Positions 6,426 through 50,211 of a stretch of 64,000 bases of DNA are shown piece after piece. The stretch is from Thermoanaerobacterium aotearoense (GTDB lineage: Bacteria > Bacillota > Thermoanaerobacteria > Thermoanaerobacterales > Thermoanaerobacteraceae): assembly GCF_009905255.1 (NCBI RefSeq), contig NZ_CP047602.1, forward strand, positions 186,001 through 250,000. The letters run 5' to 3'. The notes under the pieces are model-generated. The model searched no databases and had not been told where the DNA came from. It saw only the letters and a program-made list of their open reading frames with translations. Both the position numbers and the translations under genes were made by a program. Within the stretch, counting starts at the first letter, position 1. Each line of letters begins with the position of its first letter.

Positions 6426-6508
6426 AACTTATAAGACATTCTGAGGGTATATTGAGATATATGGAATAAGCCTATATGAGCGATAAATTTCAACCAAGTA
6501 CTTAATTT

Positions 6509-6690
6509 GTAATAATTTTATGAGCGAATATATTGCGGAGTGTTCGTTAATGTATCCGATGAACGTAGCGAAGTTTTGCGTATGAGCGTTAGCGAAAGCC
6601 GTCACAACGCATAGACGGCGTTAGCAAAACGAGAGAAGTGAATCGAAGATACATAGAACACGAAGCTTATATGAGCAATAAAATTATTAC
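6509..6690 (+). repeat. Palindromic noncoding element, copy A (182 bp)
   Basis: This fills the 293-bp gap between two glycosyltransferase genes. Outer 13-bp arms are perfect inverted repeats (GTAATAATTTTAT at 6509-6521, ATAAAATTATTAC at 6678-6690). Nested inside are GTGTTC/GAACAC, ATGTATC/GATACAT, GTTTTGC/GCAAAAC and a central GCCGTC/GACGGC stem. The core from about 6580 to 6630 is nearly identical to copy B at 13974-14157. There is no open frame of note. It may be a MITE-like element or a structured RNA domain within the operon transcript. A sequence resembling its right end (CCTATATGAGCGATAAA) also lies just upstream at about 6471-6487. Confidence 0.75.
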
Positions 6691-6718
6691 AATTAGTTAA
6701 TAGATTGGAGGATGAACC

Positions 6719-12989: not shown

Positions 12990-13922
12990 TTATTGTCGAG
13001 TCCTCTTTCTTGACACTTCCAATAGCTTTCTTTCCAGTTCATCTACGTCGTACTTCCTCTGCGGGTATGAATTGAAGTAGTTTCTTGGTGCCGTATTTGA
13101 CGATGCGGCATCTTTTAGTATTGATTTGTCTTTTAAGTAGTTTTGTATGACTTTCTCTAAAAACTTTGCTGGGTATTTTATGTCTTTTCCTTTCATGCGA
13201 GATATGCACAAATTCATTTCGTCATCTGTAAGATGGTACCTATTTTTAAGCAAATCTTTATCTATGTACTTAGGCGCATTTTCACCTTTTTGATGCATCA
13301 TATCATTGATATGATTGATAGATATACTATAAGAATTAATATCTATCATATCATTCATATCTGATATGATCATATTGTCTTCACTTTTTGAAAGTGGAAT
13401 GTTTTCAATGGTTTTAACTTCTTCTACCTTTTCACTATCTGAAATACGGTTTTCACTTTCTTTATCCATGCATTCATTTTTGTCGATATATGATATACCA
13501 GCGAAATCACCAGTTGTCATATTTTGCCAATCACAAAATTCGATTATTCTACCGTTTTCGCCATATTTGTATGTGATGCTTTCGATGGATGTATTTTGTC
13601 TTAATGTGTAGTATTTCTTCTGACGCAATTTGTCCTCGTTATCGACGTAGCACACCAAAAATCCGTCTTTTATGGCATTTTTCAAGCTTTTACTTATGAT
13701 GCCTGTAGATAGACCGGTGCCGCTGTCTATTCTCTTGCCATTTTCGTATTTTCCTTTTTGTATTTCATCGATAGTGAGCTTCACTGGAATGCACTTTCCA
13801 TTGTTTATTGTATGCTTTGCGATGTACATTATGATTTTTAACTGTGAACCGGATATTGAAGATAGACTTTCAAAAAAATTCTTTGGCACTATCCCATATT
13901 CTTTCTCAAAACCGTTTATCAT
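12990..13922 (-). CDS. Phage/plasmid-type replication-initiation-like protein
   Basis: 310 residues from the ATG whose complement is at 13920-13922, preceded by GGGGGGT; the frame stays open to 14072 but that part is the palindromic element. The N-terminal 110 residues look like a winged-helix replisome-organiser domain (FEKEYGIVPKNFFESL, SGSQLKIIMYIAKHT, STGIISKSLKNAIKDGFL), the middle is a charged linker, and the C-terminus (YHLTDDEMNLCISRMKG, FLEKVIQNYLKDK) resembles the small helical domain of DnaD-like proteins. Such genes usually sit in prophages or integrative elements, but no other phage gene is nearby, so this may be an orphan remnant or a domesticated gene. The family call is moderate; function is inferred. 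Confidence 0.5.
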   Translation of the reverse strand: MINGFEKEYGIVPKNFFESLSSISGSQLKIIMYIAKHTINNGKCIPVKLTIDEIQKGKYENGKRIDSGTGLSTGIISKSLKNAIKDGFLVCYVDNEDKLRQKKYYTLRQNTSIESITYKYGENGRIIEFCDWQNMTTGDFAGISYIDKNECMDKESENRISDSEKVEEVKTIENIPLSKSEDNMIISDMNDMIDINSYSISINHINDMMHQKGENAPKYIDKDLLKNRYHLTDDEMNLCISRMKGKDIKYPAKFLEKVIQNYLKDKSILKDAASSNTAPRNYFNSYPQRKYDVDELERKLLEVSRKRTRQ

Positions 13923-13973
13923 TTTTAAACCCCCCATTTTCATTTTTAAATAGATCTTAAATAGATGTTGCTT

Positions 13974-14157
13974 GAAAAATATTATTATAAGCGAACGATT
14001 AATGGAGTTTTCGTGATATATCACGATGAATATAGCGCAGTTTGGCGTATGAGCGAAAGTGAAAGCCGTCACAACGCATAGACGGCGTTAGCCAAACAAG
14101 CGAAATGAATCGCTGATATATAGAAAACGAAATTTGTGAGCGTTAATAATATTTTTC
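13974..14157 (+). repeat. Palindromic noncoding element, copy B (184 bp)
   Basis: Outer arms GAAAAATATTATTA (13974-13987) and TAATAATATTTTTC (14144-14157) are perfectly complementary over 14 bp but unrelated to the arms of copy A. Inner pairs correspond to those of copy A with compensating changes: GTTTTC/GAAAAC, ATATATC/GATATAT, GTTTGGC/GCCAAAC; the centre GCCGTC/GACGGC is unchanged. It lies between the divergent replication-like gene and the fructose operon. Confidence 0.75.
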
Positions 14158-50165: not shown

Positions 50166-50211
50166 GAAAAATTTATCAATGCTCACAAATTTCGCTTATG
50201 ATAAATTTTTC
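50166..50211 (-). repeat. Mini copy C of the palindromic element (46 bp)
   Basis: Read on the minus strand, arms GAAAAATTTATCA/TGATAAATTTTTC enclose TAAGCGAA joined directly to ATTTGTGAGCAT. These are the exact left (ATAAGCGAA) and right (ATTTGTGAGCGT) subterminal sequences of copy B, with the inner about 120 bp missing. It lies between rpmE and tdk. Confidence 0.6.

Follow-up and report, generated by a model that had tools for sequence, protein, structure and literature searches.

A family of palindromic repeats found mainly in the rRNA-operon spacers of Thermoanaerobacterium

In a 64,000-nucleotide stretch of Thermoanaerobacterium aotearoense DNA (contig NZ_CP047602.1, positions 186,001 to 250,000, forward strand; hereafter the window), two palindromes with a common core raise the question of what kind of element they are and what keeps their arms paired. 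An earlier note, made from the sequence alone, had proposed a new MITE-like or REP-like family or a structured RNA, with pairing maintained by selection or by the way the element is copied. The features concerned, in window coordinates, were as follows.

6507..6692, + strand: copy 1, subfamily B, locus I1, full palindrome; this strand carries the G·A steps
6507..6521, + strand: outer left arm of copy 1, TTGTAATAATTTTAT, 15 bp
6678..6692, + strand: outer right arm of copy 1, ATAAAATTATTACAA, 15 bp
6578..6627, + strand: apical core of copy 1, common with copy 2, GCGTATGAGCG..GCCGTCACAACGCATAGACGGCGTTAGC
6468..6490, + strand: AAGCCTATATGAGCGATAAATTT, direct repeat of the copy 1 right end
13974..14157, + strand: copy 2, subfamily A, locus I2, full palindrome flanked by divergent genes
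13974..13987, + strand: outer left arm of copy 2, GAAAAATATTATTA, 14 bp
14144..14157, + strand: outer right arm of copy 2, TAATAATATTTTTC, 14 bp
50166..50211, - strand: 46-bp mini-element, locus I4, between rpmE-like and tdk-like genes, consisting of arms and AAGCGAAATTTGTGAGC

The outer arms were perfectly complementary within each copy (15 bp in copy 1, 14 bp in copy 2), and the core common to both copies was found together with all of the named inner helices, namely GTGTTC/GAACAC, ATGTATC/GATACAT and GTTTTGC/GCAAAAC in copy 1, and GTTTTC/GAAAAC, ATATATC/GATATAT and GTTTGGC/GCCAAAC in copy 2. Compared with dinucleotide shuffles, the DNA fold gave z scores of -6.0 (copy 1) and -4.2 (copy 2) and the RNA fold -7.0 and -5.8, respectively, and no shuffle equalled either copy. 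Searches of Rfam yielded no match in the window at the gathering cut-off and none for copies 1 and 2 at E values up to 1. The sequence AAGCCTATATGAGCGATAAATTT at 6468..6490 represents either a remnant of another copy or a duplicate, and in G003 the stretch separating it from the right-end repeat is gone. A mechanically called minus-strand ORF (window 12990-14072) starts at a GTG at 14072, within copy 2; its real start is likely further in, which makes copy 2 intergenic.

With copy 1 as the BLAST query, a third copy was found in the window's genome (G000), between the 16S and 23S rRNA genes, and many copies were found in its relatives. A covariance model built from 17 copies detected 64 copies (49 distinct sequences) in nine genomes, nearly all at E values of 1e-20 to 1e-40; eight of the nine Thermoanaerobacterium genomes and one genome of a sister genus carried them, and no copy was detected by the model in genus g3 or in the remaining sampled class. 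The number per genome was 2-16. For G000 it was at least 3, a lower bound because one of its rRNA operons reads N upstream of the end of a slot-2 element (contig C1 near 1535000, L201). Scanning about 85,000 species genomes, a set from which the window's own genome may be absent, for the core pattern gave matches in Thermoanaerobacterium records only. The plasmids, phages and viral contigs searched contained no copy, and an origin from such sequences was rejected on that ground. Six further matches (L004, L013, L014, L015, L024 and L031) were discarded as chance similarities in unrelated DNA.

Elements were about 170-190 bp long and, apart from a single outlier, fell into subfamilies A-D. The earlier note would have been refuted by a lack of further copies, of significant covariation or of conserved ends; all three were found, the ends being AAGCGAAC..GTGAGCG. 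Inverted arms occurred in every full copy, and arm sequence was common only within subfamilies; many A-type loci had outer arms of the GGAAAATATTATTA type, while the TTGTAATWATT type was repeatedly seen in B and D. The outer arms of the two window copies, described as unrelated, thus do differ from each other but belong to types that recur across the family. Both window copies are confirmed as genuine members of one scattered element family, which is apparently restricted to Thermoanaerobacterium and the sister genus and apparently undescribed, no description having been found in a literature search that covered few subscription journals.

Covariation was examined in the 49 distinct copies. 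Both sides had changed in 21 of 31 pairs, and 96.9% of cells were paired, compared with 85.6% after shuffling and 22-44% when the partner was slid. None of 500 shuffles reached the observed covariation score; relatedness inflates such scores, yet the slid controls, which retain the relatedness, scored far lower. In the most divergent copy (L078), nearly all helices had been replaced and the junction motifs were kept. Covariation alone cannot tell selection from template-switch correction, a published route to compensatory changes and loop inversions (PMC8794818).

The two strands were not equivalent. On the + strand, 125 of 177 symmetric internal loops had G·A closing pairs at both ends, and 87 of these 125 were exact tandem GA; for the complementary strand the count was 0 of 116. 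The + strand was also the more stable in 52 of 53 copies. Conservation of tandem G·A steps on one strand only points to selection on the fold of the single-stranded + strand, and these steps argue that selection contributes. Mismatch events at pair positions comprised 19 G·U and 15 A·C; as there was no G·U excess, correction between arms at the DNA level probably restores pairing as well. A strong claim of G·U depletion, drawn from 7 one-sided versus 188 double-sided cells at consensus pairs, was softened, since G·U made up 3.6% of all predicted pairs, the corresponding share in tRNAs from these genomes being 6.1%.

When rRNA genes were mapped around the matches, about two-thirds of the copies lay in three fixed slots of rRNA operons, the remainder (about 20 copies at about 10 sites) being intergenic. 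Slot 1, about 44 nt downstream of the 16S end, held subfamily C or D, and slot 2, directly upstream of 23S, held subfamily A, both in the sense orientation in every case. Slot 3 is the loop of a native hairpin in the 23S-5S spacer, seen as GTTCATTT-AGAAGG-AAATGAAC in operons without a slot-3 element, and it held subfamily A or D in either orientation. The earlier view of a repeat family with a covarying fold is borne out as regards the scattered family and the covariation, but it had missed the rRNA-spacer home. In L068 (G005) the 23S-5S spacer holds a D-type element in antisense and, after it, an apparent A-type right-arm remnant (TTAGATAAGATTTTTTCGAAAGATG), an arrangement which suggests that this slot was hit more than once.

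Constant distances to 16S and 23S and the uniform orientation in slots 1 and 2, together with the one-strand G·A structure and the strong covariation, would suit a host RNA-processing element, in which spacer hairpins serve as functional RNase III/Mini-III substrates or pre-rRNA chaperones and intergenic copies are secondary escapes. Such a role is unlikely, in our estimate, since several operons lack elements in genomes where others have them, slot 3 accepts different subfamilies in both orientations, and in G009 slot 1 was without an element in all operons seen and slot 2 was filled in only one of three.

Occupancy differed among species and among operons of one genome: in G005 one slot 2 was empty (GAGTTACAAGAAACCAAAAGA) and another filled, and in G000 slot 1 held an element in one operon and none in two. 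Comparison of sites between genomes, which had been suggested earlier, revealed empty or deleted counterparts of the intergenic loci in other species. Several "empty" sites are probably deletions between short direct repeats. At locus I1 of G003 the DNA between two direct repeats (AAGCCTATATGAGCGATAAA) was gone, the empty slots 1 of G000 fitted deletion between GATAA repeats, and 46-bp mini-elements, including that at 50166-50211, which is the product of internal deletion, arose by recurrent deletion between AAGCGAA repeats. Candidate target duplications were AACCAA-like at slot 2 of G005 and TTCCAT-like at I3, with none clear at L082; no clean or consistent duplication was found at the sites compared, several empties being equally explained by deletion. 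The idea that an outer arm is an inverted copy of the target, prompted by one-armed slot-1 spacers in G000, was not accepted because deletion between GATAA repeats yields the same product.

Copies were also exchanged between sites. In the element tree, copies from one locus were split up: at I2, those of G001 and G005 fell in a supported slot-2 clade, apart from those of G000 and G007, and the G003 copy there was identical to that of G007. Slot 3 (in G001, G003, G004 and G005) and loci I2 and I4 were each occupied by more than one lineage and in both orientations. At I2 and I4 it was the copies of G005 that were reversed, and inversion in situ was disfavoured because these reversed copies came from other lineages, the inverted I4 copy differing at 5 positions from the I2 copy of G003 and at 8-11 from other I4 copies. 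This I4 copy (L070:4990-5157) appears chimeric, its right half I2-like (CGCTGATATATAGAAAACG) and its left half like other A copies, and one of its helices is left with a C·A mismatch. At I3, the G005 copy differed from the slot-2 copy in the 16S-23S spacer of G003 at 1 of 168 positions and carried about 22 bases of rRNA-spacer flank (TTAACCAATAAACATTGTTATG), which empty I3 sites do not have. Copying between the rRNA spacer and this intergenic site has therefore taken place and included flank outside the palindrome; the spacer looks like the source, given that empty spacers have AATAAACCAA at that position.

Exchange of this kind would also be expected of inert palindromes paired solely through template switching between arms and dispersed by homologous recombination of rRNA operons with occasional ectopic copying. 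To this the absence of a surplus of G·U among the mismatches (19 events, against 15 of A·C) and the documented ability of template switching to generate compensatory changes and loop inversions (PMC8794818) may be added. We nevertheless judge it distinctly improbable, since the one-strand G·A steps outlast helix replacement, even in L078, and pure template switching would erase them. The rRNA-spacer home, the spacer sequence outside the palindrome at I3 and the one-strand structure could be accommodated if a reverse transcriptase copied excised pre-rRNA spacer hairpins back into DNA, but antisense copies in slot 3 and reuse of intergenic sites require a further step and DNA copying, too, would bring flank along; we judge this explanation highly improbable.

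Among known classes, ERIC/IRU is a 127-bp, long palindromic, extragenic repeat without its own transposase, whose transcripts form a stable long stem-loop (PMC2229807). The present family likewise is a long imperfect palindrome, extragenic, lineage-restricted, found in both orientations, stably folded as a single strand and without its own transposase; it differs in having no visible sequence relation to ERIC/IRU, rRNA spacers as its main home and tandem G·A on one strand, and TA-bounded ends or duplication were not found in it. The Correia/NEMIS elements of Neisseria, which are palindromic and MITE-like, measure 107-155 bp, and RNase III has been proposed to act on their transcripts (PMC2229807); these too are lineage-restricted long imperfect palindromes with a stable single-strand fold; they have 24-bp terminal repeats and target duplication, whereas the arms here are subfamily-specific and no consistent duplication was seen. 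REPs are 20-40 bp long, often of very high copy number, mostly GTAG/CGTC-tagged and tied to RAYT transposases (PMC3733652, PMC2817692). REP and REPIN sequences are palindromic, extragenic and present in both orientations, as here, but the element is 170-190 bp long, occurs in 2-16 copies per genome and has no GTAG/CGTC tag at its aligned ends. Y1 domains were present in all nine genomes (mostly 138-158 aa, some 173-215 aa); any RAYT among them would be a candidate partner. A search of 20 genomes turned up neither a transposase nor a longer relative sharing the ends, and end-only matches considered as longer autonomous relatives proved to be mini-elements, truncations, contig ends or chance. 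Of the earlier label, the REP part therefore fails as tested, and the MITE part is unproven, there being no transposase-bearing relative or clean target duplication.

Intervening sequences and expansion segments of Thermoanaerobacterales lie inside 16S, 23S and 5S rRNA (PMC2672173, PMC7812874). Like the present elements, they form hairpins inserted into rRNA operons in this bacterial group and vary among the operons of one genome; the copies described here are instead in spacers or outside rRNA operons, not inside mature rRNA, so that as tested the family falls outside the definition of an intervening sequence, and their arms are not those of the 23S inserts found in these genomes. Among those inserts, one of about 300 nt with arms CCGGCACTCAACT/AGTTGAGTGCCGG occurs in the 23S of L062, L069, L079 and L106 (Thermoanaerobacterium G004-G006) and encloses a GIY-YIG nuclease ORF (Pfam PF01541, E 8e-17). 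Two other 23S helices bear ORF-less inserts with very similar arms, and the two kinds look like an autonomous/non-autonomous pair. In G009 (L086, L087) a different 23S insert, starting TAAGCAGAGGTCAGATGTGAGAGGT, measures about 430 nt in one operon and about 100 nt in the other.

The best reading of the family is a non-autonomous palindromic repeat, ERIC/MITE-like in its behaviour and unusual in its rRNA-spacer home, its reuse of sites in either orientation, its subfamily-specific arms and its one-strand G·A architecture. The lodging of these repeats mainly in rRNA spacers, their exchange between sites and their decay by direct-repeat deletion are shown by the comparisons above; the reading as a whole we consider rather probable. 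An insert in an rRNA spacer would be harmless once transcribed, as the hairpin would fold on itself and depart with the spacer during RNase III-type processing. Spread would need an enzyme supplied in trans and recombination between copies via their inverted ends, and arm pairing would be kept partly by selection and partly by arm-to-arm DNA correction during replication template switching. Counting against this reading, beside the negative results for a transposase, for copies in plasmids, phages or viral contigs and for a clean target duplication, site swapping could be due to homologous recombination alone, with no transposition, and the copy number per genome is low. A bolder reading, highly improbable in our view, has excised pre-rRNA spacer hairpins spreading as RNA and landing in hairpin loops and AT-rich sites; if true, it would explain the rRNA-spacer home, the structural selection on one strand and the roughly 22 nt of spacer on the I3 copy.

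The family is a repeat that has settled in the spacers of bacterial rRNA operons, and a single genome can show its replacement and reversal from operon to operon. As a natural system it could help to tell selected RNA covariation from template-switch correction of DNA, and its polymorphic hairpins confound both the typing of 16S-23S spacers and the assembly of rRNA operons in these industrial thermophiles.
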